Below, one piece after another: positions 11,924-30,322 of a stretch of DNA of 45,662 bases (position 1 is its first letter; each line of letters opens with the position of its first letter). The translations under genes were made by a program, and so were the position numbers. Below the pieces are notes generated by a model, which made no database searches, had not been told where the DNA came from, and worked only from the letters and a program-made list of their open reading frames with translations. This DNA is from Nocardiopsis potens DSM 45234. Its GTDB lineage: Bacteria; Actinomycetota; Actinomycetes; Streptosporangiales; Streptosporangiaceae. Location of the stretch: contig NZ_ANBB01000029.1 of assembly GCF_000341105.1 (NCBI RefSeq), forward strand, positions 1 to 45,662, in the 5' to 3' direction.

Positions 11924-12208
11924 GTGCGGTCGGCCGATGACCTGGTGAGGTGGTACCGGAACGACATCCCGGCCGCAGAGCGCCTCTGCGGCGAGCACAC
12001 CGACCAGAGCGGGGAGCGAAAGGCGACCGGACGGGAGCGGGAGTCCTGGGAGGCCCTGGAACGGGAGCTCTGCGCCGCGGGCGCCGATCCGGCGGAGATC
12101 GCGGAGGGCACCCGGCGCCTGCTCGCCCGGGCGTCCGCCCCGAGGCGCCCTCGGGCGCAGGGCCGGAAGGGCGCCTCTGTCCCGCCGCGGGTCACAGCGC
12201 GCCGGTGA
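11924..12208 (+). CDS. small hypothetical protein
   Basis: This is a 94-codon frame downstream of the NmrA-like pair with protein-like composition: a hydrophilic start, then an amphipathic stretch WEALERELCAAGADPAEIAE that looks like two helices, and a basic low-complexity tail. Third positions are strongly G/C, as in real genes here. The GTG at 11924 is the likely start; a GTG at 11945 is an alternative. The ribosome site is weak. Its 3' end overlaps the convergent SDR gene by 17 bp. No family is recognised. Confidence 0.4.
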   Translation: MRSADDLVRWYRNDIPAAERLCGEHTDQSGERKATGRERESWEALERELCAAGADPAEIAEGTRRLLARASAPRRPRAQGRKGASVPPRVTARR

Positions 12209-12953
12209 GGCCGCCCGCGTCCACCGTCAGGGTCGTTCCGCTGATGTAGCGGGAGCGGTCCGAGAGCAGGAAGAGGACGGACTCCGCGACCTCGGCGGGG
12301 GTGCCGATCCGGGCGGCCGGGTTCTTCCGGTGCAGGTCGGCCAGGAGCTCTTCGCGCATGCCGCCGAGCATCGGGGTGTCGATGACGCCGGGGCACACCG
12401 CGTTGACCCGGACGCCGTGCGGGGCGTACTCCACGGCCAGGGAGCGGGTGAGCCCGATCAGGGCGTGCTTGCTCGCGGTGTAGGGGGCGGACAGGCTGTC
12501 GGCCGTGCGCAGGCCCGCCACCGAGGAGCAGTTGACGATCGACCCGGACCCCTGGGCCGCCATGATCGCCAGTTCGCCGCACAGGCTGCGCCAGGCGCCC
12601 TTGAGGTTGACCTCCACCACCCGGTCGAAGCCCTCCTCCCCGGCCTCGTGGGAGGGGGTGCCGTGCAGCGGGCCGCCGCCGTCGGCCACCCCCGCGGCGT
12701 TGAACGCCCCGCGCAGGTCGCCCGGGAGGGCGCGGACCCGCTCGAACAGCGCGTCCATGTCGTCCCGCCGGGCGACGTCGGCCCGGACGAACACGGCGCG
12801 GCGGCGCCGGTCCGGTTCCAGGGAGGCGGCGACCTCCGCCGCGGCCTCCTCGTTTCGGCCGCTGAAGACGACGGTGGCGCCCTCGATGCCGGCCAGCAGG
12901 CGGACGGTCTCCGCCCCGATCCCGGATGTCCCTCCGACGACCAGGTACTTCAT
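12192..12953 (-). CDS. short-chain dehydrogenase/reductase (classical SDR)
   Basis: This is a 253-residue classical SDR. It has GGTSGIG for cofactor binding (residues 7-13), an Arg after strand 2 (SGRN) favouring NADPH, NAAG (85-88), catalytic Ser143/Ser144 in NCSSVAG, Tyr158-x-x-x-Lys162, and the C-terminal SGTTLTVDAG. The start at 12953 has GGGGAG ten bases upstream. An in-frame ATG at 12986 overlaps the preceding stop codon (ATGA) and would add 11 residues. In either case the gene directly follows the synthase fusion on the same message. A natural job is reduction of the keto group made by that synthase; this is inferred from context. Confidence 0.9.
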   Translation of the reverse strand: MKYLVVGGTSGIGAETVRLLAGIEGATVVFSGRNEEAAAEVAASLEPDRRRRAVFVRADVARRDDMDALFERVRALPGDLRGAFNAAGVADGGGPLHGTPSHEAGEEGFDRVVEVNLKGAWRSLCGELAIMAAQGSGSIVNCSSVAGLRTADSLSAPYTASKHALIGLTRSLAVEYAPHGVRVNAVCPGVIDTPMLGGMREELLADLHRKNPAARIGTPAEVAESVLFLLSDRSRYISGTTLTVDAGGLTGAL

Positions 12954-12982
12954 CGGTGTCGTGCTCCCCTCGGAGTGGGCGG

Positions 12983-15900
12983 TCATGGGCGCGCGGCCCG
13001 GACGGCGCGGGCGACCCGCTCGGCCAGGCCCGGCAGCGCGGCCCGGTCGTGCACGGCGCTCACCGTGGTGCGCACCGCGTTGACGGCGCCGGGCGACGCC
13101 GAGGCGACCGGCAGCCCGTAGATCCCCGCGGACAGCAGCGCGGCGTGGGCCTCCTCGACCTCGGCGGGGCCCGGCAGCACCAGCGGCACGATCGCCGCCT
13201 GCGCCCCGCCGATGTCCAGCCCGGCCCCGCGCAGCGCCTCCCGCCAGGTCCGGGCGTTGGCCTGGAGCCGCCCCGCCAGCGCGGCGCCGTCGTCGAGCAG
13301 GGACCGGGCGGCGCGGTGCGCCATGAAGGCGTGGACCGGGGCGAGGCCGGTGGAGTACACCGCGCCCCGCCGGGCCGGCAGGCCGCCGAGGACCTCCCGG
13401 GGGCCGGCGAGGTAGCCGCCGCTGGAGCCCAGGGCCTTGGCCAGGGTGCCGGTGCGGACCACCGGGCCGGGCTCCGCCCCGCCGAAGTGCTCGGACACGC
13501 CGCGCCCGGTCGGCCCGAGCTGGCCGAGGGACCCGGCCTCGTCGACCAGGAGCAGGCAGCCGTGGCGCTCGGCCGCCCCGCGCAGCGCGGGCAGGTCGGT
13601 GATGTCGCCACCGATGCCGAACAGCCCCTCGGTGACGACCACCCTGCGCCGGGCGGGGGCGGCGGTGGCGATCAGCTCTTCGAGGTGCCCGGGGTCGTTG
13701 TGGCGGAAGAAGTCGAACCGGGCGCCGCTGAGGACGCACCCGTCCAGGAGGGAGCGGTGCGCCCGCTCGTCGACGAAGAGGTGGTCGCCGGGGCCCGCCA
13801 GGCCGGTGAGGGCGGTGAGGTTGGCGAGGTAGGCCGAGCTGAAGAGCAGGGCGGCCTCGGTGCCGTGCAGCTCGCACACGGCCTCGGCCAGCCTCTGGTG
13901 CCAGAGGGTGTGCGCGTTCACCTCGGCGGAGCCGTGCGAGTGCAGCGGCAGGCCGGAGGAGAGGAACTCCTCCAGGGCCCCGCGGTCGGCGTTGCGCCCG
14001 CCCAGGCCGAGGTAGTCGTTGGAGCAGCAGTGAGCGAAGGCGCGGCCGCCGAAGGCGATCTCGGTGGTGGACACCCGGGTGACCGGGCCCGGGCCGGCCG
14101 GTGCTCCCGAGCGGGGCGCCCCGGCGGGAGGCCCGGCGTCCGAGCGGGGCGCTCCGGTGGGCGGCCTTCCCTCCGCGAGGGGCGGTCCGCCGTCCGGGAG
14201 GGGAGGGCGGCCGGACAGCGCGGAGCGCACCTCGGCCAGGCTCATCCCCGGGTGCAGCCCCGGCGGGCGCCGCTCGGCGGGCCCGTCCGCCAGCAGGCCG
14301 GCGAGGGACAGGAAGCGCAGCGAGTCGATGCCCAGCTCGCGGAGGGGGACGTCCTCGGGGGGAGCGGCGGTGCCGGTGTGCCGGCGGACGAACTCGGCGG
14401 CGGCGTCGGCGCCGGACCCGGCCGCGGCCTCGCCGGCCTCCCCGGGTGCGGCCTCCCCGGCGGCGCGGGAGCGGGCCTCGCGCCGGAGCGCCTCCAGGTC
14501 GATCTTGCCGTTGGCGGTCAGCGGCAGGGCCCGGCGGGTGACGACATGGTGCGGGACCGCGTAGCGGGGCAGGCGCCCGGCGAGGAAGGAGCGGAAGCCC
14601 GCCGGGGAGAACTCCACCGCCTCGTCCGCGGGGACCACGAAGGACACCAGCGTCGGCAGGCCGTCGACGTCGACGGCCACCGTCGCCGCGTCGGCGGCCT
14701 GCGGGTGCGCCCGGCACGCGGAGCTCACCTCGGTCGTCTCCACCCGGTGGCCGGAGATCTTGACCTGGCCGTCGATCCGGCCGGCGCCGACCACCCCCAG
14801 GCCCGGCGCGGCATGGCCCAGGTCCCCGGTCAGGTAGGCGCGGCGGGGGCGGGGCGCGCCCGGCAGGCGGTCGCGGAAGGGGCCGCGGTCCGGCGCGGGG
14901 GCATCGAGGTAGCCCAGCGCGAGCTGCTCGCTGACCACCGCGACCTCGCCGGTCTCGTAGGGGAGGCGGGGGGTGCCGCCGCCGGCCCCGACCACCAGGA
15001 TCCCGGTGTCCTTCATCCCCCGCCCCAGGGGGACGACCGGGGGCAGCGCCGCGATCTCCCCGGAGGTCGGCGGCACCTCGAAGCAGGCGACGGCGCGCTG
15101 GGTCTCGGTGGAGCCGTACAGGTTGAGGATGCGGGCGGCCGGCGCCGCGCGGCGCAGCCGCAGGGCCTGGTCCCGGGCGAGCGGGGCGCCGACGGAGAGG
15201 AGCAGCCGCAGGTCGGGCAGGCCGCCGCCGTCGCGGTCCAGGGCGGGGGCGAGGACCGGGTTGAGGCAGACCGCCTCGACCCGCTCGCGCCGCAGCCACG
15301 CGGCGAGTTCCGCCGGGTCCTCCGCCGCCCCCTCCTCGGGCACGCTGATCGAGCCGCCGAGGAACAGCGGGGTCATCAGGTCCCGCTGCAGCGGGTCGTG
15401 GCCGAGGCTGGAGCACATGCCGAAGCGGGCGCCGGCCAGCGGCCCGAACCGCTCGTCCATCCAGTCGTAGAAGCAGGTGAGGGAGGCGTAGCGGCCCGCC
15501 ACCGCCTTGGGGGTGCCGGTGGTGCCGGAGGTGAAGGTGACGACGGCGCAGTCGTCGGGGCCGAACACGTCCCCCCTTCCCGCGCCGGGCGGGGGAGGCG
15601 CCTGCTCGGCCGCCGCGACCGCGTCCGCGCCCATGACCGGGAACCCGGCCGGCGCCCCTCCGCGCCCGGCGAGGTCGACGACCAGGTCCGGGGCGAGGGC
15701 CTTCGCGCAGGCCTCGATGTAGTGCGCGGGGTGGCGGGGGTCGACGAGCGCGACCGCGGTGCCGTTCCCGAAGGCGGCGAGCACCGCCGCCACCAGGTGC
15801 TCGTCGCGCCGGGGGAGGATCAGGGCGCGCGACCCCCGGCCCAGCCCCCGGGCGCGCAGCGCGGCGGAGAGCGCGGCGGCCCGCCGCGCCAGGGCGCCGT

Positions 15901-16504
15901 AGGAGAGGGCGGCGCCGGGGGCGCGCACCGCGGGCCGGCCGGGGTGCAGGCGGGCCAGTCGCTCGAAGCGGCCGGTGAGGCCCTCGGCGGGCGGCGGGTC
16001 GGCGGCGGGCAGGGACGGGGCGAACGCCCTCCGCATCTCGGCCTCGCGCCGCGCCGGGTCGCCCAGTCCGGACTCGGGCAGGCCGGTGAGCGCGCGCACC
16101 GCCTTCTCCACGACGCCGCCGAGCCCGTGCAGGGCCCGTTCCCCGTGCGGGACGCGCACCTCCACCCGGGCGCCGCCTCCGGCGGAGGCGACCGCGATCG
16201 CGGTTCGCGGCGGGGGCCGCTCCGCGAGCGCGTCCGGGGCGCGGTCGGCGTCGACGATCGCGTGCACGGGGCCGGGCGGGAGGCCGCCGCCGTCCCCCGG
16301 CTGCACCGCCTCCCCGGGGAAGGCGCCGTCGAGCAGCCGGTGGAGGTCGCGGACGGCGCACAGCACGTGCTCCTTGCCCAGCTCCACCGAGAAGCGGTGC
16401 ACCCGGACGGCGTCCTCCGGCCGCGGGCGGCCGTCCGGGGCGGGGGACCGCGCACCGGGACGGTTCCGGATATCGAATTCCGGAAAAGAGCACTCGTGTC
16501 GCAA
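12983..16504 (-). CDS. NRPS-like fusion: N-terminal domain of unknown type, adenylation, carrier protein, alpha-oxoamine synthase
   Basis: This is an 1173-residue fusion. Residues 1-170 have no recognised domain. Residues about 175-675 are an adenylation domain: FTSGTTGTPKA (324-334), NLYGSTET (461-468), YLTGD (557-561), GRIDGQVKISGHRVE (575-589) and PLTANGKIDL (661-670). Its SLGHDPLQRDLMTPLFLGG segment resembles alpha-aminoadipate-reductase (Lys2-type) domains. A carrier domain follows with phosphopantetheine Ser728 in LGIDSL. After a Pro-rich linker (about 765-808), residues 815-1170 are a PLP-dependent alpha-oxoamine synthase: CSNDYLGLG, VTEGLFGIGGDITDL, Asp988 and the PLP Lys1023 in TLAKALGSSGG. 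The usual Asp-Glu-Ala-His reads DEAGS (Gly991). Predicted chemistry is loading of an acid as a thioester and decarboxylative condensation with an amino acid to give an aminoketone. The TTG at 16504 follows AGGGGGA. Confidence 0.9.
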   Translation of the reverse strand: MRHECSFPEFDIRNRPGARSPAPDGRPRPEDAVRVHRFSVELGKEHVLCAVRDLHRLLDGAFPGEAVQPGDGGGLPPGPVHAIVDADRAPDALAERPPPRTAIAVASAGGGARVEVRVPHGERALHGLGGVVEKAVRALTGLPESGLGDPARREAEMRRAFAPSLPAADPPPAEGLTGRFERLARLHPGRPAVRAPGAALSYGALARRAAALSAALRARGLGRGSRALILPRRDEHLVAAVLAAFGNGTAVALVDPRHPAHYIEACAKALAPDLVVDLAGRGGAPAGFPVMGADAVAAAEQAPPPPGAGRGDVFGPDDCAVVTFTSGTTGTPKAVAGRYASLTCFYDWMDERFGPLAGARFGMCSSLGHDPLQRDLMTPLFLGGSISVPEEGAAEDPAELAAWLRRERVEAVCLNPVLAPALDRDGGGLPDLRLLLSVGAPLARDQALRLRRAAPAARILNLYGSTETQRAVACFEVPPTSGEIAALPPVVPLGRGMKDTGILVVGAGGGTPRLPYETGEVAVVSEQLALGYLDAPAPDRGPFRDRLPGAPRPRRAYLTGDLGHAAPGLGVVGAGRIDGQVKISGHRVETTEVSSACRAHPQAADAATVAVDVDGLPTLVSFVVPADEAVEFSPAGFRSFLAGRLPRYAVPHHVVTRRALPLTANGKIDLEALRREARSRAAGEAAPGEAGEAAAGSGADAAAEFVRRHTGTAAPPEDVPLRELGIDSLRFLSLAGLLADGPAERRPPGLHPGMSLAEVRSALSGRPPLPDGGPPLAEGRPPTGAPRSDAGPPAGAPRSGAPAGPGPVTRVSTTEIAFGGRAFAHCCSNDYLGLGGRNADRGALEEFLSSGLPLHSHGSAEVNAHTLWHQRLAEAVCELHGTEAALLFSSAYLANLTALTGLAGPGDHLFVDERAHRSLLDGCVLSGARFDFFRHNDPGHLEELIATAAPARRRVVVTEGLFGIGGDITDLPALRGAAERHGCLLLVDEAGSLGQLGPTGRGVSEHFGGAEPGPVVRTGTLAKALGSSGGYLAGPREVLGGLPARRGAVYSTGLAPVHAFMAHRAARSLLDDGAALAGRLQANARTWREALRGAGLDIGGAQAAIVPLVLPGPAEVEEAHAALLSAGIYGLPVASASPGAVNAVRTTVSAVHDRAALPGLAERVARAVRAARP

Positions 16505-16653
16505 GCGTTTCCCCCTAGGTGATTCGGGTGATTCAGGACTTGCGGGAAACCCCCGTCAGATCTCCCCGTGCGGCCCCGTTCGTACCTCACCGGAAAGGGA
16601 AGAAGTATCTTGCCGCCGCGCCCCGCCGATCTTCCTGCGAGGTGAAGAACCAG
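16505..16653. promoter_or_regulatory. divergent promoter region of the synthase fusion and the glutamine-synthetase-like gene
   Basis: These 149 bp separate the two oppositely transcribed genes. A 9-bp tandem direct repeat, GGTGATTCG then GGTGATTCA (16518-16535), sits immediately upstream of the synthase ribosome site (minus-strand AGGGGG, 16511-16517). TATCTT near 16606 is a possible -10 for the ligase gene. Both genes are probably co-regulated from here. Confidence 0.5.
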
Positions 16654-18042
16654 ATGTCAGACGGACCGGCCCTTCTGGGCGAGCACCGGAAACTGAACGC
16701 CGATTCCGCACTCGTGAAAGAGATCGAAGAGCGCGTCCGCGAATCGGGCGTCGAATACGTGCATTACCAGACAGTGACGCTCACCGGAAGGGTCGTCGGG
16801 AAGACCGTTCCGGCGCGCCACTTGAGGCGCGGCCTGGAAGAGGGGGTGCGGATGATCCGGCTCGTCCTCGCCGATATGCGCACCGACCGGTCGGGGGACC
16901 CCATCGGCGGGGGAGTGAACGCGACGGAGTTCGTCGCGATGCCCGACCCGGACACCTTCGCCGTGCTGCCGTGGGACCCCGGTTCGGCCCGCTTCCTGTG
17001 CCGCCTGTACGAGCCGGAGCAAGGCCCGGAGGAGACCGCCGGGCGGCCGCTGCCCGCCGACGCCCGGGGCGGCCTGCTCCGCCTGCACGGCGCGTTCACC
17101 GAGCGCACCGGCCTGGAGCTGCGCAGCGGCTGCGAACCGGAGTCCACCTGGACCGGCCCGGGGGCGGGCGCCGCCGAGGGGCACCGGGTCTCCCCGGCGT
17201 TCCACTTCGACTCCCTGGACCGGCTGCGCCCGGTCTACCGGCGCATCGTCGCCTACGGCCGGGCGATGGGGCTGGACATGGTCGAGGGCGGGCACGAGGG
17301 CGACGACGGCCAGCTGGAGATGAACTGGGCCCACGACCGCGCCGAACGCACCGCGGACCGGCTGATCGACTACCGCCAGATCTGCCGGCAGGTCGCCCGC
17401 GAACTCGGCATGGGCGTCACCCTCATGCCCAAACCGCCCGGCACCGGGCTGGGCAACGGCTGCCACCACAACGTCAGCCTGTGGCGGGGGGAGCGGAACG
17501 CCTTCACCGACCCGGGCGCGGACCGCCTGCACCTGACCGGGACCGGCCTGCACGCCCTCGGGGGGATCCTGCGGCACGCGGCGGCGATGGCGGCGGTGCT
17601 GTGCCCCACAGTCAACTCCTACAAGCGCCTCCTGAACGGCAGCGACTTCACCCCGTCCAGGATCGACTGGGGGCGGGAGACGAAGAGCTGCACGGTCCGC
17701 CTCCCGGCCAACGGCCGGCTCGAATTCCGGCTCCCCGACGCCCTGGCCAACCCCTATCTCTCCCACGCGGTCCTGCTCTCCGCAATGGAGGACGGAATCC
17801 GCTCGCGCATCGACCCCGGCCCGCCCAAAGGGGAGGAAGGCGGAAACGCGGAATCGTTTCCGGCCCTGCCGGGCGACCTCGGCCGGGCGCTGGAACTGTT
17901 CGCCGCCGACCCGGTCGTCACCGGCGCACTCGGCCCCGACCTGACCGGCCTGTTCCTCGAACTGAAGAAAGCGGAATGGTCCCGCTTCCGCGCCGCCGTC
18001 ACCGACTGGGAGAGCGCCGAATACGGCGGCGCGGTCTGCTGA
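16654..18042 (+). CDS. glutamine-synthetase-like ATP-dependent amide ligase
   Basis: This is a 462-residue member of the GlnA/GlnT/PuuA superfamily, which makes amides from a carboxylate, an amine or ammonia, and ATP through an acyl phosphate. Visible elements are a beta-grasp-type N-terminal domain; Glu-Pro-Glu (161-163) as probable metal ligands; EGDDGQLEMNW (215-225); LMPKP...GNGCHHNVSLW (257-277) with active-site His residues; NSYKRL (321-326) and W339-type Arg loop; and RLEFRLPDALANPYL (355-369). Primary-metabolism GlnA usually has tighter matches and an adenylylation loop, neither of which is clear here. Location opposite the synthase fusion suggests a biosynthetic amide or gamma-glutamyl ligase. 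The start ATG at 16654 follows GAGGTG. Confidence 0.88.
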   Translation: MSDGPALLGEHRKLNADSALVKEIEERVRESGVEYVHYQTVTLTGRVVGKTVPARHLRRGLEEGVRMIRLVLADMRTDRSGDPIGGGVNATEFVAMPDPDTFAVLPWDPGSARFLCRLYEPEQGPEETAGRPLPADARGGLLRLHGAFTERTGLELRSGCEPESTWTGPGAGAAEGHRVSPAFHFDSLDRLRPVYRRIVAYGRAMGLDMVEGGHEGDDGQLEMNWAHDRAERTADRLIDYRQICRQVARELGMGVTLMPKPPGTGLGNGCHHNVSLWRGERNAFTDPGADRLHLTGTGLHALGGILRHAAAMAAVLCPTVNSYKRLLNGSDFTPSRIDWGRETKSCTVRLPANGRLEFRLPDALANPYLSHAVLLSAMEDGIRSRIDPGPPKGEEGGNAESFPALPGDLGRALELFAADPVVTGALGPDLTGLFLELKKAEWSRFRAAVTDWESAEYGGAVC

Positions 18043-18123: not shown

Positions 18124-18501
18124 TCAGGCCCGGGGGAACGCGCCCCCGCCCAGCGCCTCCTCGTATTCGGGGGCGCGGCCCAGCACGTGCCTGCTGCCCC
18201 AGGCGCCGAGGGGCTCCAGGGCGTCGTTGAGGGAGCGGCCCAGGTCGGTCAGCGAGTACTCCACGCGGGGCGGCACCTCGTCGTAGGACTCGCGGTGCAC
18301 GATGCCGTCCTCCTCCAGCTCGCGGAGATGGGCGGCGAGCACCTTCTCGGACACCCCGGCCAGCTCGCGGCGGAGCTCGCCGAAGCGGCGCGGGCCCTCC
18401 CCCAGAGCCCACAGGACGAGCACCTTCCACTTGCCGCCGATCACGTCCATCGCGGCGTCGATGCCGCAGTGGTACGCCCCGGGCCTGCGCATCGCACCCA
18501 T
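18124..18501 (-). CDS. HxlR-family winged-helix transcriptional regulator
   Basis: This is a 125-residue MarR-like HxlR regulator. It has the N-terminal conserved Cys12 in YHCGID, IGGKWKVLVLWAL as the first helices, RRFGELRREL...VSEKVLAAHLRELEEDG as the helix-turn-helix and recognition helix, and RVEYSLTDLGRSL as the wing. HxlR proteins often sense electrophiles, quinones or disulfide stress through a Cys. The ATG at 18501 follows GGAGGGG. It is divergent from the imine-reductase-like gene with only 98 bp between starts and a palindromic site between them, so it very likely controls that gene and itself. Confidence 0.92.
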   Translation of the reverse strand: MGAMRRPGAYHCGIDAAMDVIGGKWKVLVLWALGEGPRRFGELRRELAGVSEKVLAAHLRELEEDGIVHRESYDEVPPRVEYSLTDLGRSLNDALEPLGAWGSRHVLGRAPEYEEALGGGAFPRA

Positions 18502-18545
18502 TCCGCAACCCCTCCCGCCTGTTCGCTCACCCCGGGGTAACCACC

Positions 18546-18564
18546 CACTTCAAAGTGCGTACTT
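18546..18564. promoter_or_regulatory. probable HxlR operator
   Basis: Two overlapping inverted repeats lie between the divergent HxlR and reductase genes: CACTT-CA-AAGTG (18546-18557) and AAGT-GCGT-ACTT (18553-18564). Spaced ACTT/AAGT half-sites are typical of HxlR-family operators. The site is 36-54 bp upstream of the reductase start. Confidence 0.6.
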
Positions 18565-18599
18565 GTCCGCCCCCGGAGCGCTCCGCCAGCCTAATCCAC

Positions 18600-19481
18600 A
18601 TGAACGCGACCGAAACCTCCAAGCCCCGCATCTCCCTTCTCGGACTCGGCACCATGGGCACCGCCCTCGCCCGCGCCTGGCTGGCCGCCGGGCACCCGGT
18701 GACCGTGTGGAACCGGACCGCCGCCCGCGCCGAACCGCTCGCCGCGGAAGGCGCCGAGACCGCCGCGACGGCGGCCGAGGCCGTCGCGGCGGGAGACCTG
18801 GTCGTCACCTGCCTGCTCGACGACGCCTCGGTCGGCGAGGCGCTGGCCGCCGCCGACCTGTCCGGCAAGGACCTGGTGGACCTCACCACCGGCACCCCGG
18901 AGCAGGCCCGCGCCCGGGAGGCGTGGGCGCACGCCCGCGGCGCCCGGTTCCTCAGCGGCGGCATCATGGCCGTCCCGCCGATGATCGGCGTCCCCGAATC
19001 CGGCGGCTACGTCTTCTACAGCGGCGCCGAGGAGGTGTTCGCCGAGCACCGGGGGACGCTGGCCGTCCCGGCCGGCACCACCTACGCCGGCGCCGACGCC
19101 GGGGCGGCGGCGCTGTACGACGTCGCCCTGCTCAGCGCGATGAACGGGATGTTCGCCGGGGTCACCCACGCGTTCGCGCTGGTCCGCAAGGCCGAGATGC
19201 CGATCAGGGACTTCGCGTCCCTGCTCGCCGACTGGCTGACCGCGCTGGCGCCGGCCATCCACACCACCGCCGAGCAGCTGGACAGCGGCGACTACACCAC
19301 CGGCGTCGTCTCCAACCTCGCCATGCAGGCGGCGGGCGTCCCCACTCTGCTCCGCACCGCCGAGGACGAGGGGGTCGACACGGCGCTGGTGGCCCCCTAC
19401 CTGGAGCTGATGGAGCGCCGCGTCGCCGAGGGGCACGGCGACGAGGAGGGCGCCGGCATGATCGACATGCTGCGCCGGTAG
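18600..19481 (+). CDS. imine-reductase-like NAD(P)-dependent oxidoreductase (beta-hydroxyacid dehydrogenase superfamily)
   Basis: This is a 293-residue protein. An N-terminal Rossmann domain has GLGTMG (15-20) and VWNRTAARAE after strand 2, indicating NADPH. Segments DLTTGTPEQA and GGIMAVPPMIG match imine reductases closely. The lysine that beta-hydroxyacid dehydrogenases use for catalysis is replaced in the LYDVALLSAMNG helix, where Asp occupies the expected place, as in many imine reductases. The C-terminal half is all-helical and forms the dimer in this family. The ATG at 18600 was chosen because upstream codons run through the operator. The substrate is unknown; a cyclic imine from the adjacent biosynthetic locus is speculative. 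Confidence 0.85.
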   Translation: MNATETSKPRISLLGLGTMGTALARAWLAAGHPVTVWNRTAARAEPLAAEGAETAATAAEAVAAGDLVVTCLLDDASVGEALAAADLSGKDLVDLTTGTPEQARAREAWAHARGARFLSGGIMAVPPMIGVPESGGYVFYSGAEEVFAEHRGTLAVPAGTTYAGADAGAAALYDVALLSAMNGMFAGVTHAFALVRKAEMPIRDFASLLADWLTALAPAIHTTAEQLDSGDYTTGVVSNLAMQAAGVPTLLRTAEDEGVDTALVAPYLELMERRVAEGHGDEEGAGMIDMLRR

Positions 19482-19877: not shown

Positions 19878-20762
19878 TCAGCCCTCCGCCTCCGGCAGGT
19901 GGTCGTGCCGGCGGAGGAACGCCAGCAGCGCGTCGGCGGCCTCCGCCGCGCCCAGCGGGCCCAGCACGGTGGGCCGCTCCGTGCGCTCCAGGGCGCCGGT
20001 CAGCGCCAGGATGCGCCGGTGCGCGTCGCCCTGCGGCGGCGGCACCGGGCGGGTGCGAGGGCGGGCCGGGCCCACCGACACCGCGCGCACCCGCGGCCGG
20101 GCCGCCGGGGCCTGCACCACCGGGACCGGCGCACCGGCCGCCGCCAGCGCCGCGGCCAGCGGGGCGCGGCGCGGTTCCGCCCCGGTGCCCTCCACCGAGC
20201 AGACCGCGGGCAGCGGCACGCCGAGGACCTCGCGGCGGCCGCGGTCCAGCCGGCGCACCCCGGTCAGCCCGGCCGGCCCGCCCCCCGGACCCGCACCGGA
20301 CGGGGCCAGCGAGAGCAGCCCCAGCGCCTGGGCGAAGCCCAGCCGGTGGGCCAGGAACGCGGGCAGCGCCCCGGGAGCGTCGGCCGGGCCGGCCCCGCAC
20401 AGCACCAGGTCGGGCCGGTCCCCGCCGCGGGTCAGCGCGCCGGCCAGGGCCTCGGCGGTGTGCGCCTCGTACTCGGCGTCCTCCGGCCGCTCCGGCGGCC
20501 GGTCGACGCGGAGCACCCCGGCGCCCAGCGCGGCCGCCTCGCGCAGCGCGGCGTCGTGGCCGGGCGGCCCGGCGGCCACCGCCAGCAGGCGCGGCGCGGC
20601 GCCGCCCTCCCGCAGCCCGTCGGCCAGGCGCAGCGCCAGCTCCAGGGCGGCGGCGTCGCCGGGGGAGAGCCGGCAGGCCCGCCGGTCGGTGCGGACCTCG
20701 GCGGTGAGCGGGTCGACGTCGGGCAGCGGGTCGGCGGGGGCGAGCACGACGGAGATCAGCAC
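19878..20762 (-). CDS. mycofactocin-associated electron transfer flavoprotein, beta subunit
   Basis: This is a 294-residue ETF-beta/FixA-like protein. It has an N-terminal alpha/beta fold with VVLAPADPLPD, then LSPGDAAALELALRLAD and the DLVLCGAGPADAPGALPAFLAHRLG segment corresponding to the ETF nucleotide-binding region. Sequence identity to housekeeping ETF beta looks low and the protein is rich in Ala/Pro/Gly. It should pair with the ETF alpha encoded at 23093-24292 to carry electrons from flavoprotein dehydrogenases to the FixC-like protein. The GTG start lies 3 nt after the ferredoxin stop, so it is the last gene of the fixC-fixX-etfB message. Confidence 0.85.
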   Translation of the reverse strand: MLISVVLAPADPLPDVDPLTAEVRTDRRACRLSPGDAAALELALRLADGLREGGAAPRLLAVAAGPPGHDAALREAAALGAGVLRVDRPPERPEDAEYEAHTAEALAGALTRGGDRPDLVLCGAGPADAPGALPAFLAHRLGFAQALGLLSLAPSGAGPGGGPAGLTGVRRLDRGRREVLGVPLPAVCSVEGTGAEPRRAPLAAALAAAGAPVPVVQAPAARPRVRAVSVGPARPRTRPVPPPQGDAHRRILALTGALERTERPTVLGPLGAAEAADALLAFLRRHDHLPEAEG

Positions 20763-20765
20763 CGC

Positions 20766-21086
20766 TCACCCCTTCCGGAACACGACGCCGCGGCCGCCGT
20801 CGGGGTAGCCCCAGCTGATCGCGCCCGCCTCGTTGCAGACCAGGTAGCAGGTGCCGCACTCGAAGCAGTGCTCGTAGTTGAAGAGCACGCCGCCGTCGGC
20901 GGTGGGCGAGAACAGGTCCGCCGGGCAGGCGGTGACGCACGGCTTGGTGGTGCACGACCGGCACACCCGGGTGTCCACGGTGATGTGCGGCCGGGCGCCG
21001 ACGTCGAAGTCGACGGTGGCCATCCGGTCGGCCAGCGACGGCTCCTCGGCGGGCGGCAGCGGGCGGGGGCGGTCAGCGGAAGACAC
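20766..21086 (-). CDS. FixX-like 4Fe-4S ferredoxin
   Basis: This is a 106-residue ferredoxin-like protein. Its Cys motifs CRSCTTKPCVTACPADLF and CFECGTCYLVCNEAGAISW match FixX and the iron-sulfur domain of ETF:quinone oxidoreductase. It ends in YPDGGRGVVFRKG, as FixX proteins do. The N-terminal 25 residues are Pro-rich. GTG at 21086 starts it, overlapping the fixC-like stop by 14 bp. It probably passes electrons between the FixC-like flavoprotein and quinone. Confidence 0.92.
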   Translation of the reverse strand: MSSADRPRPLPPAEEPSLADRMATVDFDVGARPHITVDTRVCRSCTTKPCVTACPADLFSPTADGGVLFNYEHCFECGTCYLVCNEAGAISWGYPDGGRGVVFRKG

Positions 21087-22554
21087 GGGCGACCCTCCAG
21101 GCGTCGGCGGCGAGGTGGTGCAGGCGGACCCCGTTGGCCCGGGCCGCGCGCAGCAGCAGCCGGGCCAGCCCCGGCTTGGGCGCGGGGTTGTCCACGGTGA
21201 ACGCGGCCTGGGCCAGGTCGGCGGCCAGCCCGGGGTAGCGCTGCTGCACCCTCGGGGAGAGCACCAGCCCGGGGGCGCCGCGCAGCCGCGCGTGGTCGGC
21301 CAGGACGAACGAGGAGCGCAGGGCGCGCCCGTAGCGGGCCAGCCCGCGGCGGCCGGTGTCGCCCAGCGCCAGCGCCTCGGCGGCGGCGCGCCCGGCGGCC
21401 AGCCCGGCGCCGATGGCGAAGTTGACGCCCTCCAGCCAGATCCCGGCGGCCAGCGTCATCCCCGCGGCGTCGCCCGCGACCAGGATGCCGTCGCCGTACA
21501 GCCGGGGCATGTGCCGGTAGCCGCCCTCGGGCACCAGGTGCGCGGCGTACTCCTTGACGGTGCCGCCGCGCAGGTAGGGGGCGATGGCGGGGTGCCGCTT
21601 GATCCCGTCGACGACCTCCTCGGGGCGCCTGCCGGAGGAGGCCAGGCCCTCCACCGAGAGCACCGCGCCCACCGCCACCGTCTCGGCGTTGGTGTACAGG
21701 AACCCGCCGCCCGGTATGCCGCCGGTGCAGCCCAGCATCTCGAAGTCGGCGCCCTCGTCGCCGCTGAGCCCGAACCGCTGGTCGATGGCGTCCCGGGGCA
21801 GCGCGATCACCTCCTTGACGCCCAGCGCGACGTGCCGGGCGCGCGGGCCCGGGTGCAGGCCGGCCTCCCGGGCCAGCAGCGAGTTCACCCCGTCGCAGGC
21901 GATCACCACCCGGGCCGGCAGGTCGCCGCCGGGCCGGTCGGTGCGCACCCCGGCGACCCGCCCGCCGGGCCCGCGCAGCAGACCGGTGGCGGTGGTGGAG
22001 GGGACCAGCCGCGCGCCGGCCCGCACCGCCTCGCCGGCCAGCCAGGAGTCGAAGTCCGACCGGTAGGCGGTGACGCCGTTGCCGGGCGGCCGCCCCCAGG
22101 CCGGGGCGCGCACGTCCACCGAGACGGCGCGCTCCCCGGAGAGCATCACCGTGGAGCGGCGCACCACCCACCGCTGCACCGGCGCCTCCTCGCGCCAGTC
22201 CGGCAGCACCCCGTCCAGGACGCGCGGGTAGATCACCCCGCCGTAGACGTTCTTCGCCCCGGGGAAGGGGCCGCGCTCCAGCAGCACCACGGAGCGGCCC
22301 GCCCGGGCCAGCTCCAGCGCGGCGGCCGCCCCGGCCGGCCCGGCGCCCACCACCACCGCGTCGACCGCGCCCGGCCCGGGCCCCGGTTCCGGCTCCCGGA
22401 AGCGGAGCGGCGCGGCCCGGTCTCCCGCCGAGGGGGTCGACCTCGGCGCCACGGCCCCGTCGACGCGCTCGGACGGGGCCGCGGCGCCGAGATCGACGGG
22501 GGGCGGGGGCGGGCCGTCCGCGGGCCGGCGGTCGTCTGCACTCGGCGAGGTCAT
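21073..22554 (-). CDS. FixC-like FAD-dependent ETF:quinone oxidoreductase
   Basis: This is a 493-residue flavoprotein. After a Pro-rich 55-residue extension comes the FAD-binding VVVGAGPAGAAAALEL and LLERG at the end of strand 2, then PGAKNVYGGVIYP (typical of FixC), a CDGVNSLLAR motif and the GDAAGM FAD-binding element near residue 375. FixC with FixX corresponds to the split form of ETF-QO, which accepts electrons from ETF and passes them to membrane quinone. The ATG at 22554 follows GGAG; the longer reading (to 22686) is low-complexity. It heads the fixC-fixX-etfB message, separated by 538 bp from the other mycofactocin genes on the same strand. Confidence 0.9.
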   Translation of the reverse strand: MTSPSADDRRPADGPPPPPVDLGAAAPSERVDGAVAPRSTPSAGDRAAPLRFREPEPGPGPGAVDAVVVGAGPAGAAAALELARAGRSVVLLERGPFPGAKNVYGGVIYPRVLDGVLPDWREEAPVQRWVVRRSTVMLSGERAVSVDVRAPAWGRPPGNGVTAYRSDFDSWLAGEAVRAGARLVPSTTATGLLRGPGGRVAGVRTDRPGGDLPARVVIACDGVNSLLAREAGLHPGPRARHVALGVKEVIALPRDAIDQRFGLSGDEGADFEMLGCTGGIPGGGFLYTNAETVAVGAVLSVEGLASSGRRPEEVVDGIKRHPAIAPYLRGGTVKEYAAHLVPEGGYRHMPRLYGDGILVAGDAAGMTLAAGIWLEGVNFAIGAGLAAGRAAAEALALGDTGRRGLARYGRALRSSFVLADHARLRGAPGLVLSPRVQQRYPGLAADLAQAAFTVDNPAPKPGLARLLLRAARANGVRLHHLAADAWRVARVFR

Positions 22555-23092
22555 CGGCGGCTCCGAAGGTCGGGGACCGGAACGGTCGAGAAGGATCCCG
22601 GCCGGGCCGCCCCGCAGGGAGGGGCGGCGGGCGTTGTCCACCGGATCGCCGGACCGGCACCGGATGAGGGCGGGGCGCCTCCGCACCGGGACTCGGCCCT
22701 TTCGCCGGCCGGGCAGGGAAGGAGCGGGCGCGGTGCGGCCCGGCGCGGCCGGCCTCGTCGGTCTCTTTTTCCTGCGTTCTCCCGCCGCGCGGCCGGTGGG
22801 GTGACGACTGCTGGTGATTTCATCGGTGCTTCCCGATGATTCTCCGTTGCCATCGCCTCAGGCGGTTCGGCGGTCCGGCGCGGATGCAGGGCGTCCGCCA
22901 TCGGAGCGCCTGGAAGCGGGCGCATCTCGAAGAGGGCGCCGCCTGGCATCGGAACCCTCGCCGGGAAGTCGCCCGGAGAGTTGAAACGCCTCGTGGAGAC
23001 CGTGCGGGACCTCGCCCTTCGGAGCCGGCGGCGGTCGGTGAAGCGGGAAGAAGACCGGTGACGGGAACGCTGGGATTCACTCAACGGAGGGG
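22555..23092 (-). other. 538-bp gap inside the mycofactocin-linked gene set
   Basis: No convincing reading frame exists on either strand; the open frames present are Arg/Pro/Gly-rich shadows without start signals. Composition is slightly less GC-rich around 22790-22860. I saw no strong hairpin after the ETF alpha stop and no clear -35/-10 pair. Presumably it holds the promoter of the FixC-like gene. Confidence 0.5.
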
Positions 23093-24292
23093 TCACGGGT
23101 CGGCCACCCCCAGGCGGGCCGCGAGTTCGACGAGCAGGGCGCGGGCGTCGGTGACCAGGCCCAGGTCGGCCATGGCGGTCATCGGGCAGGCCGGGTCGGT
23201 GTTGACGCTGACCACGTGGCGCGGGGCGCCCAGGCCGCCGGTGTGCTGGGCGGCGCCGGAGATGCCGAACGCCAGGTAGAGGTCGGGGTCGACGGCGGCG
23301 CCGGTGGTGCCGATCTGGCGGTGCGCCTCGGCCCACCCCGCGTCGGTGGCGACCCGGGTGGCGCCGTGCGCCGCGCCCAGCGCCGCGGCGACCCGCTCCA
23401 GCAGGGCGAACGCCTCCCGGGCCGCCTGGGCGCCGTCGGCCCCGGCGGCCAGGCCCGCGCCGCCCGCCGCGACCCGCGCCGCCTCCGCCAGGTCCGCGGT
23501 ACCCGGGTCGGGCGCGCGCACTTCGACGGTGCGGGCCTCCGCCGGACCCGGCCCTGAGTCGGGCCCGTCCAACCGGACCGGTTCCGGGACGGTGGGCCGG
23601 GCAGGGGGAGCGGGGGCGGGGGGACCGGACGCGGGAGCCGGGCCGGTGGAGACGGCCGCTCCGGAGGCGGGAGTCGGCCCGGAGGCGGGGCCGGAGCCGG
23701 TGGGAACGGCCGCTCTGGGAGCGGGAACCGAGCCGGCGGAGACGGCCGCTTCGGGGGCGGAGAGCGGGCCGGTAGGGCCGGTAGGGGCGGACCGGCAGCC
23801 GGGCAGCAGGGTGGCGACGGCGGGCGCGTCGGCCTCGGCCCGCACCGCGACCCGGCCGCCGGCCCGGAGCAGTTCGGCCGCGACCGCCTCCGGGGCACCG
23901 TCCGCCCCGGTGACCAGGTCGACCCGGGAGGCCGCGGCCAGCAGCGGCCGGTCCAGCGCCGCGGCGAGCCGCGGGGCCAGGTCGCGCCCGTCCGGCGAGG
24001 CGGGCAGCAGCACCAGCGGCGCCGCCTCCAGCGCGGCGGCGAGCACCGGGACGAGCGCGGCCGGGGCGATTCCCTCGCCGGTCTCCCGGTAGAAGGTGCG
24101 GCCGGGGCGGAACGGGGCGAGCTCCCGCGCCCCCTCCCGGGCCCCGGAGCCGACCACCAGGACGTCGCCGGCGGCCTCGGCGACGGTTTCGGCGGCCCCC
24201 AGCGGGGGTAACCCGCCACGTACGACGATCAGCGCGACCGGACCCCTACCGGTCCATTGGCCCGGTTTCGCGGTGGTTTCGGTGCCAGTCAC
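23093..24292 (-). CDS. mycofactocin-associated electron transfer flavoprotein, alpha subunit
   Basis: This is a 399-residue ETF-alpha-like protein. Residues 1-165 are the N-terminal domain (VALIVVRGG, DVLVVGSG). Residues about 167-245 are a Pro/Ala/Gly/Ser linker with near-repeats such as GPASGP and PAPASGPP, absent from normal ETF alpha. The C-terminal FAD domain has the family pattern RVATDAGW...QIGTTGAAVDPDLYLAFGISGAAQH then VSVNTDPACPM. The GTG start at 24292 overlaps the preceding stop (GTGA), so it is translationally coupled to the upstream OYE-type gene. It should form the ETF heterodimer with the product of 19878-20762. Confidence 0.9.
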   Translation of the reverse strand: MTGTETTAKPGQWTGRGPVALIVVRGGLPPLGAAETVAEAAGDVLVVGSGAREGARELAPFRPGRTFYRETGEGIAPAALVPVLAAALEAAPLVLLPASPDGRDLAPRLAAALDRPLLAAASRVDLVTGADGAPEAVAAELLRAGGRVAVRAEADAPAVATLLPGCRSAPTGPTGPLSAPEAAVSAGSVPAPRAAVPTGSGPASGPTPASGAAVSTGPAPASGPPAPAPPARPTVPEPVRLDGPDSGPGPAEARTVEVRAPDPGTADLAEAARVAAGGAGLAAGADGAQAAREAFALLERVAAALGAAHGATRVATDAGWAEAHRQIGTTGAAVDPDLYLAFGISGAAQHTGGLGAPRHVVSVNTDPACPMTAMADLGLVTDARALLVELAARLGVADP

Positions 24293-26295
24293 AGGGCCAC
24301 CGCCGCCCGGTGGCCCTCGATCACCGCGGAATGGGCCCTTCTCGGTGCCAGGCAGTCACCGACCCTGTGCACATCGAAGCGCGCCTTCGAGTCGCCCCCG
24401 GCCCGCCGCAGCTCGCTCCAGAGCGCGTCGTCGGGGCGCTGGTGCACCGCGCAGACCACCCAGTCGACCGACCGGGACTCCTCGGCCCCGGTGGGGTGGT
24501 GCTGCAACCGGAGCAGCACCCCGCCGCCCTCGGCCCGCTCGGCGCCGGTGCAGATCCGGTCGGTGCTCCACACCGTGCCCGCCGCGTGCGCCTTCACCGC
24601 CGCCGCCTCCAGGTCCAGGGTGACGCCGAGGTCCTGGCCGACCGACATCGCCGGGGTGACGACCTCCACCGCGCAGCCGCGGTCGGCGAGCAGCTCGGCC
24701 ACCGACACCGCCTGGTGGAACCCCAGCTCGTCGAAGACCACCACCCGGCCGCGCGGCTCCGCCGCGCCGCCCAGCACGTCGCGCACGTCCACCACCCGCG
24801 GGTGCCCGCCGGCCCACCACGGGGCCTGCGGCAGCGCCCCGGTGGCCAGCACCACCGCGTCCGGCCGCTCGGCCAGCACCGTCCCGGCGTCGGCCGCCAC
24901 ACCGGTGCGCAGCTCGGCGCCGTACCGGGCGGCCTCGGCGGCGAGGTTGCGGACCAGGTCGAGCAGCTCGGCGCGGGAGGGGACCGAGGCGGCCGGCACG
25001 ATCTGCCCGCCGGTCCGGTGCTCCCGCTCCAGCAGCACCACCTCGTGGCCGCGGCGGGCCGCGCTCGCCGCCGCCTGCAGGCCGCCCGGACCGCCGCCGA
25101 CCACCAGCACCCGGCGCCCCCGGCGGCGCGGCGCGGGCAGCGGGACCGGGGCCCGCCCCGCCGCCTGCTCCGCCTCCCGCCCGGCCTCGGGGTTCTCGAT
25201 GCAGCCCAGCCACCGGTTGAGCCCCATCCGCCCGACGCACTCCTGGTTGCAGGAGAGGCAGGTGCGGATCTCCGCGGCCCGCCCGGTGCGGGCCTTGGCG
25301 GCGAACTCGGGGTCGGCGATCTGGCCGCGCACCACCCCGATCAGGTCGGCCTGCCCGGCGGCCAGCGCCCGGTCCGCCTGGAGCGGGTCCTTGAACCGGC
25401 CCACCCCCACCACCGGCAGCCGCACCGCCTCCCGGATCGCGCTGGGGACGTACATCGCGTACCCCGGCGGGACCTGCATGCTCGCCTCGATCATGTGCAG
25501 GGTGGAGGTGGCGGAGCCGATGGAGGTGTTGATGTAGTCCACGGCGCCGGTCGCCTCGACCATGCGGGCGGTGCGCACCGCCTCCTCCAGCACGGTCCCG
25601 CCCTCGATCAGCTCGTCCCCGCACAGCCGCACGCCCAGCGCCAGGTCCGGGCCGATCGCCTCGCGCACCGCCCGGACCAGCTCCAGCAGCAGCCGGGCCC
25701 GGTTCTCCAGCGGGCCGCCCCACCGATCGGTCCGCCGGTTGGCGGCGGGGGAGAGGAACCCGCGCACGATGGAGGAGTGCGAGCACTGCAGCTCCACCCC
25801 GTCGAAGCCGCCCAGGGCGCAGTGCCGCGCGGTGCGCGCGTACCCCTCGACGACCTCGGCGATCTCGTGCTCCTCCACCGCCTTGGGCACCTCCCGGAAC
25901 AGCGGGTCCGGCACCGGGCTGGGCGCCCACACCGGCAGCCGGGTGTACATCGAGGAGGCCTGGCCGCCGTTGTGGTTGAGCTGCGCGAGCACCGGCACCC
26001 CGTGCGCGTGCACCGCCTCGGTGATCCGCCGGTAGCCCGCCACCACCGCCGGGTCGTAGCCGCGGATCAGCTTCTCGTAGGGGTGGTCGGTGGGGTGGGT
26101 GGAGTGCTCCTCGGTGATGATCAGCCCCGCCCCGCCGGCCGCCCGCGCCGCGTAGTAGGCGGCGTGGCGCGCGGTGGGCGCGCCGTCCTCGGCGTAGTTG
26201 GTGAGGTGGGCGCAGAACACGATCCGGTTGGCCAGGGTGAGCGGCCCGACCCGCAGCGGGGTGAACAGGTACCGGTAGGTGCGCGCCGGGCTCAT
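24289..26295 (-). CDS. mycofactocin system FadH/OYE-family oxidoreductase (second of pair)
   Basis: This 668-residue multidomain flavoenzyme resembles 2,4-dienoyl-CoA reductase. An FMN-binding TIM barrel (1-340) contains PLTLANRIVFCAH, LNHNGGQ, RWGGPLENRARLLLE and VVGVGRF. A 4Fe-4S site follows at Cys346, Cys349, Cys353 and Cys365. The C-terminal part has two dinucleotide-binding motifs, the first VLVVGGGPGGLQ (396-407). The His-x-Ala-His-Gly-Tyr motif of classical dienoyl-CoA reductases reads QCSHSSIVRGF, so the active site differs. Expected flow is NAD(P)H or ETF through FAD, the cluster and FMN to an enoyl or other unsaturated substrate, or the reverse. It is coupled by ATGA to the upstream paralogue and by GTGA to ETF alpha. 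Confidence 0.88.
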   Translation of the reverse strand: MSPARTYRYLFTPLRVGPLTLANRIVFCAHLTNYAEDGAPTARHAAYYAARAAGGAGLIITEEHSTHPTDHPYEKLIRGYDPAVVAGYRRITEAVHAHGVPVLAQLNHNGGQASSMYTRLPVWAPSPVPDPLFREVPKAVEEHEIAEVVEGYARTARHCALGGFDGVELQCSHSSIVRGFLSPAANRRTDRWGGPLENRARLLLELVRAVREAIGPDLALGVRLCGDELIEGGTVLEEAVRTARMVEATGAVDYINTSIGSATSTLHMIEASMQVPPGYAMYVPSAIREAVRLPVVGVGRFKDPLQADRALAAGQADLIGVVRGQIADPEFAAKARTGRAAEIRTCLSCNQECVGRMGLNRWLGCIENPEAGREAEQAAGRAPVPLPAPRRRGRRVLVVGGGPGGLQAAASAARRGHEVVLLEREHRTGGQIVPAASVPSRAELLDLVRNLAAEAARYGAELRTGVAADAGTVLAERPDAVVLATGALPQAPWWAGGHPRVVDVRDVLGGAAEPRGRVVVFDELGFHQAVSVAELLADRGCAVEVVTPAMSVGQDLGVTLDLEAAAVKAHAAGTVWSTDRICTGAERAEGGGVLLRLQHHPTGAEESRSVDWVVCAVHQRPDDALWSELRRAGGDSKARFDVHRVGDCLAPRRAHSAVIEGHRAAVAL

Positions 26296-28463: not shown

Positions 28464-28466
28464 CGG

Positions 28467-29717
28467 TCAGGCCTCCGGGGCGGCGGGGGAGAACCCGGCC
28501 AGTGGGCTCTCGTCGCACGGCGCGGCCGGCGGGGCCGCCGTCGCCTCCGGGGGCCGGCGGCCGATGGCCACCGGCACCGGGCCGGCGCGGCGCGGCCGGG
28601 TGCGGTGCGAGTGGTCGCAGGAGGGGGCCGGCGCCGACCCCGGCACGACCTCGGCCAGCGCCGCCGCGCCGTGCCCCTTGACGCACTCCGGGTCGGGGCC
28701 GTCCAGCGGCAGCCCGGTGAAGAACTTGGCCGCCATGCACCCGCCCCGGCAGGAGTCGTAGGCGCCGCAGGAGGAGCAGGCGCCGCCGTCCTGCGGCCGG
28801 CGCAGCTCGGCGAAGAGCCCGGAGCCGCGCCAGACCGCGGCGAAGCCGCCCGGGCCGCGCACCGACCCGGCGCGGAACCGGTCGTGGATGGCGAACGGGC
28901 AGGCGTAGACGTCGCCCACCGGGTCGATGAGGCAGACCACCCGGCCCGCGCCGCACAGGTTGAGGCCGGGCAGGGCGCGCCCGTAGGCGGACAGGTGGAA
29001 GAAGGAGTCGCCGGTGAGCACCTCCTCGCCGTGTTCGAGCAGCCAGTCGTAGAGCGCACGCTGCTGGTCGGCGGTGGGGTGCAGCTCGTCCCAGACGTCG
29101 GCGCCGCGGCCGGCCGGGCGCAGCCGGGTCAGCCGCAGCCGGGCGCCGTGCTCGTCGGCGATCCGCTTGAAATCGTCCAGCTGCCCGGCGTTGTGCCGGG
29201 TCACCACCACCGACAGCTTGGGCTCGGCCAGTCCCGCGCCGGCCAGCGCGCCCAGGGCGCGCATCGCGGTGGCGTAGGAGCCGGGGCCGCGCACGGCGTC
29301 GTTGACCTCCGGGGTGGCGCCGTCCAGCGAGACCTGCACGTCCACGTAGCCGTCGGCGGCCAGCCGGCGGGCGGCGGCCGGGGTGATCCGCACGCCGTTG
29401 GTGGAGAACTTGACGCCGACCCCGCTGCCGGTGGCGTAGGAGACCAGCTCGAAGAAGTCGGGGCGCACGGTCGGCTCGCCGCCGCCGATGTTGACGTAGA
29501 AGACCTGCATCCGGCGGAGCTCGTCGATGACCGAGCGCGCCTCGGCGGTGTCCAGCTCGCGCGGGTCGCGCCGCCCGGAGCTGGACAGGCAGTGCACGCA
29601 GGAGAGGTTGCAGGCGTAGGTCAGTTCCCAGGTCAGGCAGATGGGGGCGTCCAGGCCGCGCTGGAAGTGGTCGACCAGGCGGGTGCCGGACGCCGGGGCC
29701 TCGGAGGGCTGTGCCAC
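28467..29717 (-). CDS. mftC: mycofactocin radical SAM maturase MftC
   Basis: This 416-residue radical SAM/SPASM enzyme carries the SAM-cluster motif Cys36-x3-Cys40-x2-Cys43 (ACNLSCVHC), GGGEP (78-82), and C-terminal SPASM cysteines in NLCGAGRVVC, DVYACPFA, ACSSCGAYDSCRGGC and DPECVKGH. MftC oxidatively decarboxylates the C-terminal tyrosine of MftA and then links it to the neighbouring valine. A Pro/Ala-rich tail ending CDESPLAG follows, which I recall from other MftC proteins. The GTG start is 46 nt after the mftB stop. Immediate neighbours mftB and mftA make the assignment secure. Confidence 0.96.
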   Translation of the reverse strand: MAQPSEAPASGTRLVDHFQRGLDAPICLTWELTYACNLSCVHCLSSSGRRDPRELDTAEARSVIDELRRMQVFYVNIGGGEPTVRPDFFELVSYATGSGVGVKFSTNGVRITPAAARRLAADGYVDVQVSLDGATPEVNDAVRGPGSYATAMRALGALAGAGLAEPKLSVVVTRHNAGQLDDFKRIADEHGARLRLTRLRPAGRGADVWDELHPTADQQRALYDWLLEHGEEVLTGDSFFHLSAYGRALPGLNLCGAGRVVCLIDPVGDVYACPFAIHDRFRAGSVRGPGGFAAVWRGSGLFAELRRPQDGGACSSCGAYDSCRGGCMAAKFFTGLPLDGPDPECVKGHGAAALAEVVPGSAPAPSCDHSHRTRPRRAGPVPVAIGRRPPEATAAPPAAPCDESPLAGFSPAAPEA

Positions 29718-29763
29718 GGCGGTCCTCGCGGTGCGTCGGGGAACGGGAGGGAGGGCGGCGGGG

Positions 29764-30084
29764 TCAGGGCTCCCCGTCGCGGGGCACGAGCATGCCGCCG
29801 GCGGCCAGTGCCGCCAGCGCCCGCTCGTAGCGGGGCAGCAGGCCGGCGGGGACGCCCGCGTGCTCGCAGGCGGCGCGGGCGCTGGGCCGCTCGCCCAGGG
29901 CGCGCACCACGTCGAGCAGCAGGCGGTCCTTGAGGAAGGAGAGCCGCCGGGTGTCGAAGTGGTAGAGCAGCGCGCCGAACGGCTCGGGGCGCACGGAGAC
30001 CCGGGGGTGCAGCGCCCAGGCCCGGCCGGGGTCGAACCCGGAAGGGCCGGGCGGGGCGGGGCCCGGGGCGGGAGCGGGCTGCAC
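29764..30084 (-). CDS. mftB: mycofactocin peptide chaperone MftB
   Basis: This 106-residue protein matches MftB, a small RiPP recognition element-type chaperone that binds the MftA leader and presents it to MftC. Visible features are a Pro-rich start, WALHPRVSVRPEPFGALLYHF (a beta-rich winged-helix start), TRRLSFLKDRLLLDVVRAL and a helical end RYERALAALAAGGMLVPR. It lies between mftA and mftC. GTG at 30084 starts 9 nt after the mftA stop with a weak AGGCGG ribosome site. Confidence 0.92.
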   Translation of the reverse strand: MQPAPAPGPAPPGPSGFDPGRAWALHPRVSVRPEPFGALLYHFDTRRLSFLKDRLLLDVVRALGERPSARAACEHAGVPAGLLPRYERALAALAAGGMLVPRDGEP

Positions 30085-30093
30085 GGCGGCCGC

Positions 30094-30228: not shown

Positions 30229-30265
30229 GGGGCTCCCTTCGCAAGGGGGCGCGCGGGCGCGCCCG

Positions 30266-30309: not shown

Positions 30310-30322
30310 GAAAGGAAGGGCC

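Follow-up and report, generated by a model that had tools for sequence, protein, structure and literature searches.

Described relatives and the three-gene locus

Alpha-oxoamine synthases (AOS) that are paired with carrier domains have been described. A survey from 2013 tabulates single-chain fusions of adenylation (A), carrier (CP) and AOS domains, given as A-CP-PLP2 in Microscilla marina and Blastopirellula marina and as A-CP-Luc-PLP2 in Nocardia brasiliensis (PMC3870968, Table 2), and in the PigH-type (prodiginine) and SxtA-type (saxitoxin) proteins, as the relevant part of the same survey has it, a carrier likewise adjoins the AOS. The locus considered here lies in a 45,662 bp stretch of GC-rich Nocardiopsis potens DSM 45234 DNA (contig NZ_ANBB01000029.1; this whole stretch is called the window below). 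It encodes a fusion with the same adenylation, carrier and Aminotran_1_2 order in one chain as the tabulated proteins, a short-chain dehydrogenase/reductase (SDR) downstream on the same strand, and a divergently oriented glutamine-synthetase-like ligase. The comparison with the tabulated fusions is one of architecture, not of sequence; the table rows name no product and no SDR or ligase partner, and the window fusion differs in having an N-terminal domain and a DEA(G/C) motif. A first-pass annotation made from the DNA letters alone had noted that carrier-paired oxoamine synthases are known, as the survey bears out, and had not recognized the three-gene set as a described pathway; in agreement with the latter, no described cluster matching the trio was found in the full-text literature among the matches listed (curated cluster databases lay outside this comparison). 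The A-CP-AOS architecture is already known, and what is new is the pocket code common to the A domains of this fusion and its closest relative, the loss of the DEAH-motif histidine, and the trio.

We tentatively favor, as an account that leads the others while falling somewhat short of probable, a small pathway in which the A domain would adenylate an L-alpha-amino dicarboxylic acid at its side-chain carboxyl and pass the acyl group to the carrier serine. A second, small amino acid, in the simplest case glycine, would be turned into a quinonoid by the AOS, which would condense it with the carrier-bound acyl group in a Claisen step, with loss of CO2 and release of an alpha-aminoketone. Glutamate and glycine would give 2,6-diamino-5-oxohexanoate, and aminoadipate and glycine would give 2,7-diamino-6-oxoheptanoate; reduction of the ketone by the SDR should then yield an amino alcohol, 5-hydroxylysine or a homologue. 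The ligase would join the gamma-carboxyl of glutamate to an amine, most likely an amino group of the amino-alcohol product, and the gamma-glutamyl group might serve as a cap, as activation or as self-protection. The order of loading, condensation, reduction and ligation, already put forward in the first-pass annotation, fits the domain families found. Alb29 of albogrisin biosynthesis is an AOS that uses L-glutamate and acyl-CoAs to make aminoketones (PMC11906848, in the part that treats this enzyme); both would be natural-product AOS enzymes involving glutamate, but in the window proposal glutamate is the carrier-bound acyl group. A link to negamycin, by way of a 3,6-diamino-5-hydroxyhexanoate product, was considered and dropped, since the producer's cluster encodes lysine hydroxylation and beta-lysine formation (PMC12154649).

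Domain searches place all three genes where the first-pass annotation had them, apart from two gene starts. The fusion (1173 amino acids) occupies bp 12,983–16,504 of the minus strand, and the SDR (253 amino acids, the proposed aminoketone reductase; bp 12,192–12,953, also minus) starts 29 bases behind it and matches adh_short_C2 (PF13561, E 1.2e-58, scanned from bp 12,986). The ligase (462 amino acids) lies at bp 16,654–18,042 of the plus strand, divergent from the fusion. An AGGGGG precedes the fusion's TTG start at bp 16,504, the GTG start of the Allonocardiopsis relative described below stands behind AGGGGAG, and in both the sequence VHRFS follows 34 codons after the start; together these support the TTG. 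For the SDR the start is most likely the ATG at bp 12,953, because GAGGGGAG lies upstream of it and the sequence KYLVVGG is common to the two genomes, with an ATG upstream at bp 12,986 as a possible alternative. Like these two starts, the ATG at bp 16,654 is preceded by a ribosome-binding-like sequence, and it is most likely the ligase start in place of the earlier bp 16,519. No shared operator between the divergent genes was apparent among the words of at least nine bases common to both upstream regions, most of which fall within coding sequence or close to it.

A second copy of the trio was found by scanning genome contigs with the AOS core, a scan that required exact eight-residue words and so would miss many relatives; of its 78 pattern matches, two encode a relative. 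One, in Allonocardiopsis opalescens, carries the complete trio, likewise divergently arranged: its fusion (L005:7526-11071) is 62% identical to that of the window over 1137 residues, its ligase (L005:5832-7268) 67% and the SDR behind its fusion 79%. Because the same three genes stand in the same divergent order in this second genus, it is likely that the trio constitutes one pathway. The first-pass annotation had held that conservation in several genera would support such a pathway; Allonocardiopsis supplies one further genus, and it is also the only close relative that the scan found. The other locus, from a Sulfurovum assembly, resembles the window fusion in its AOS part alone (about 31%), and no other open reading frame (ORF) of the window matches there at E 1e-10, so the SDR and ligase partners are present at one of the two loci. 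Both the single close relative and the bare Sulfurovum AOS weigh against the proposed pathway.

Searches of mobile elements added no further copy. By tblastn the fusion matched 1241 of 72,556 plasmid records and 32 of 50,697 phage records, and in none of them did coverage at a single place reach 80% (these collections may leave out records of the window's own genome), and viral contigs scanned with the fusion, the ligase and the fusion alignment gave no relative. The Streptomyces clavuligerus plasmid match to the fusion joins two pieces, and one 412-residue AOS-like ORF is present there. In this stretch of the megaplasmid (L001:8104-20000) an AOS-like ORF, together with acyl-CoA-dehydrogenase-like and carrier-like ORFs, lies near ORFs resembling nonribosomal peptide synthetases, and two neighboring ORFs there each occur in two similar copies (judged from the sequence starts only).

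Adenylation pocket and loaded acid

The adenylation domain comprises fusion residues ∼180–677 (bp 14,474–15,967), with Pfam matches to AMP-binding (PF00501, residues 180–533, E 1.9e-47) and AMP-binding_C (residues 592–667). Against NCBIfam the fusion scores 239.4 bits with the amino-acid adenylation model TIGR01733 (cutoff 317.4) and 238.6 bits with bioF (cutoff 426.45), and thus it is related to both families while reaching neither curated cutoff. The carrier domain (residues ∼705–775, bp 14,180–14,392) contains the phosphopantetheine serine that the first-pass annotation had predicted, Ser728 (codon at bp 14,321–14,323), within GIDSL, which is GVDSL in Allonocardiopsis; the match of this domain to PF00550 is weak (16.8 bits, below the cutoff of 20.8), and this counts to some degree against the proposed pathway. 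Ahead of the adenylation domain lies a conserved stretch of ∼130 residues on which the earlier annotation was silent. This N-terminal domain (residues ∼35–165, bp 16,010–16,402) is 62% identical in the window and Allonocardiopsis fusions and belongs to no known family: the window copy has no Pfam match at E up to 10 (program filters drop most matches above about E 0.1), and the Allonocardiopsis copy has one sub-threshold match, PF17844 at E 0.047.

Alignment with LgrA A1 gives the pocket code D-P-R-C-L-V-L-R-A-K, which includes D370, R374, C413, R470 and K667 of the window fusion and is identical in Allonocardiopsis. In both fusions the positions of Asp235 and Lys517 in the amino acid code are occupied as expected, so that plain fatty and aryl acids are improbable substrates, and the two conserved arginines should suit a second carboxylate. 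We infer that the side-chain carboxyl serves to load an amino dicarboxylic acid here, either alpha-aminoadipate or glutamate. The first-pass annotation had proposed the loading of an acid; the pocket code makes an amino dicarboxylic acid the likelier one. The Lys2 code is, we presume, the same at 7 of 10 positions, both arginines included; the exact pocket-code strings had no match in literature full text and thus were not found in print. No usable pocket code is present in the available parts of three papers (PMC2823734, PMC9605436 and PMC2174460). That side-chain loading of aminoadipate exists is clear from delta-(L-alpha-aminoadipyl)-L-cysteinyl-D-valine synthetase, which adenylates this amino acid on the delta-carboxyl (PMC7147772, whose available text gives no pocket code).

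The alpha-aminoadipate reductase (Lys2) model TIGR03443 scores 224 bits with the window fusion and 232 bits with that of Allonocardiopsis, or 94% and 92%, respectively, of the generic adenylation score; the best stretch is residues 311–537, and the 224 bits stand against a cutoff of 1030. The same ratio is 64% for one control protein (L004), 39% for the S. clavuligerus megaplasmid control and 82% for a control with two modules (L003). The fusion shares A-domain similarity with Lys2 but has no thioester reductase domain among its Pfam matches, and an AOS follows the carrier instead. Two observations speak against the dicarboxylic acid assignment. The 82% of the two-module control comes rather near the ratios of the two fusions, and D-P-R with other remaining letters occurs in two Streptomyces A domains (the second module of L003, and L004), so that these three letters may reflect clade membership no less than substrate.

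The closest alternative stays near the first-pass annotation. It would keep the assembly logic and have the A domain load some ordinary acid, or an amino acid through its alpha-carboxyl; a simple aminoketone or a 1,3-diaminoketone would then form, along with the corresponding amino alcohol. The domain order and the SDR fit this too, and the two Streptomyces domains indicate that the reading of the code may mislead; set against it are the Asp and Lys code positions, which make plain fatty or aryl acids unlikely, and the paired pocket arginines, which point to a second carboxylate. We regard it as a real possibility, though a rather unlikely one.

Pocket of the oxoamine synthase

The AOS domain (residues ∼810–1173, bp 12,986–14,077) matches Aminotran_1_2 (PF00155, residues 827–1163, E 1e-31), and the best matches of the fusion among profiles for pyridoxal 5′-phosphate (PLP) domains are AOS. 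It was aligned with 14 comparators: eight plasmid matches, hand-picked among the best 30 of 539 matching records, the S. clavuligerus, Thioclava and Sulfurovum proteins, and three PDB rows; some of these are near-duplicates of one type, as with two glycine-acetyltransferase-like plasmid rows. The lysine that carries PLP (Lys1023), the aspartate that faces the pyridine nitrogen (Asp988), the histidine that stacks on the ring (His916) and the C-terminal arginine (Arg1145) all align with those of the comparators, one of which ends before the arginine. The Thioclava plasmid match looks like a prodiginine-type cluster by its gene content; unlike the window locus, it has a gene of its own for the AMP-binding protein, and the AOS of its PigH-like protein reads DDAH. 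The comparison of the fusion with SxtA follows what we take to be the organization of that protein.

Two parts of the pocket are altered in both fusions. The histidine of the DEAH motif, kept in 14 of 14 comparators, is replaced by Gly991 (DEAG) in the window and by cysteine (DEAC) in Allonocardiopsis, and the flexible substrate loop before the stacking histidine, G/A-x-R-x-x-x-G, reads G-S-A-E-V-N-A. The missing histidine tells against the proposed condensation, as the Claisen step may be slow without it or replaced by another reaction; the pocket changes as a group may tune the reaction or indicate a different one. A PLP domain that has diverged into a decarboxylase, racemase or aminotransferase acting on a carrier-bound amino acid, with the SDR acting elsewhere, would account for both the DEAG/DEAC and the loop changes. 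The remaining catalytic positions checked are kept, however, and the best PLP profiles are those of AOS; the loop arginine is also missing in 2 of the 14 comparators, and the DEAH histidine may be dispensable, since substitution of the corresponding residue in mouse 5-aminolevulinate synthase reportedly leaves reduced activity. A non-Claisen role for this domain thus appears quite unlikely, and a Claisen-type AOS remains the preferred assignment.

The ligase and neighboring genes

The ligase protein matches PF00120 (E 4.5e-70, scanned from bp 16,519), and in alignment with PDB rows it keeps the motifs EPE, HE..GQxE and NGxHH, which hold the metals of glutamine synthetase. In that enzyme a flap glutamate closes the ammonium site. 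In the sole ammonia-type row compared (8ool) this glutamate is present, and the window, Allonocardiopsis, S. clavuligerus and Gordonia proteins have phenylalanine in its place. Because the flap glutamate is missing while the metal-ligand motifs are kept, the amine that the ligase uses is probably not ammonia. The first-pass annotation had offered amidation or gamma-glutamylation; amidation with ammonia is now the less likely of the two, and gamma-glutamylation is retained as the predicted activity. Three details count against so simple a distinction: the Rhodococcus and 9qur rows lack the flap glutamate as well, an aspartate stands one position before its site in the window ligase, and the arginine of the N-R-S stretch is lysine in all four rows of the ligase subfamily. 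The best solved-structure match is 9qur, a glutamate-methylamine ligase, with 7cql third; these gamma-glutamylmethylamide synthetase and type III glutamate-ammonia ligase rows both lack the flap glutamate as the window ligase does, but its identity to 9qur is 36% and the gene context differs.

The nearest plasmid relatives of the ligase are in the S. clavuligerus megaplasmid (59% identity) and in pGKT2 of Gordonia sp. KTR9 (50%). In the former (L007:13659-16359) a P450 ORF is directly followed by the ligase ORF, which suggests a P450-ligase pair. In pGKT2 (L008:10659-14430) an unannotated ligase-like stretch lies between a P450 gene and a FAD oxidoreductase gene, which is followed by a further P450 gene; the ligase match stops 15 bases before the oxidoreductase gene in the same frame, and the stretch is possibly part of a ligase-reductase fusion. 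We take these Gordonia genes to belong to the region for degradation of RDX (hexahydro-1,3,5-trinitro-1,3,5-triazine). Since relatives adjoin P450 genes elsewhere, the subfamily may ligate diverse amines. No adenylation-carrier-AOS fusion is annotated or in the ORF list near either ligase, which weakens the case for a dedicated partnership. The ligase might then be a separate amine-utilization or detoxification gene, linked to an aminoketone pathway of two genes only through a common divergent promoter region. Besides the P450 neighbors, this is favored by a Rhodococcus opacus relative near gamma-glutamyl hydrolase, aldehyde dehydrogenase and aminotransferase genes and by an amine-oxidase-family (PF01593) gene behind the SDR in Allonocardiopsis; since the only close relative has this partner, 67% identical, in the corresponding place, we consider it improbable and keep the ligase within the proposed pathway.

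The surroundings of the trio differ between the two genomes. In Allonocardiopsis a major facilitator superfamily (MFS) transporter gene lies behind the ligase, and the protein of the PF01593 gene has only a weak best NCBIfam match (HpnE, 55.5 bits vs. 283); neither gene adjoins the trio in the window. Searched at E 1e-10 against the 20.7 kb Allonocardiopsis locus, the other window ORFs gave no match except an HxlR-type regulator and a distant SDR. The regulator (46.5% identity over 86 residues) is downstream of the ligase in both, and in Allonocardiopsis it has the other orientation and is placed behind the MFS gene. In the window it is divergent from an imine-reductase or reductive-aminase-like gene downstream of the trio (bp 18,124–19,481 for the pair). 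The latter gene (bp 18,600–19,481; RedAm-like_C, E 9.4e-31) was considered as a cyclizing reductase for the aminoketone and dropped, as it has no match in the Allonocardiopsis locus at the above threshold. Farther on, a mycofactocin region (bp 19,878–31,000) includes mycofactocin-associated electron transfer flavoprotein alpha and beta genes, FixC- and FixX-like genes, an FMN oxidoreductase gene, a radical SAM gene and an MftR-type TetR regulator. No link of the HxlR, imine-reductase-like or mycofactocin genes to the trio was found in these comparisons. A cytochrome P450 gene (PF00067, bp 32,874–34,112) lies ∼15 kb from the trio, with no link shown.

Taken in full, with self-contained side-chain lengthening of glutamate or aminoadipate by the carbon and nitrogen of another amino acid, hydroxylysine-type diamino acids made by carbon-carbon bond formation and ketone reduction in place of lysine hydroxylation, a histidine-less PLP pocket and a product held as its gamma-glutamyl derivative, the scheme is unlikely to be right in every part. 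Even if it is wrong in detail, the locus is still an uncharacterized small pathway common to two genomes. If it is true, three genes would turn two common amino acids into an unusual diamino acid without a hydroxylase, which would provide a short path to hydroxylysine-like building blocks and an aminoketone biocatalyst that loads itself, and the natural loss of the DEAH histidine would show how far an AOS active site can change.

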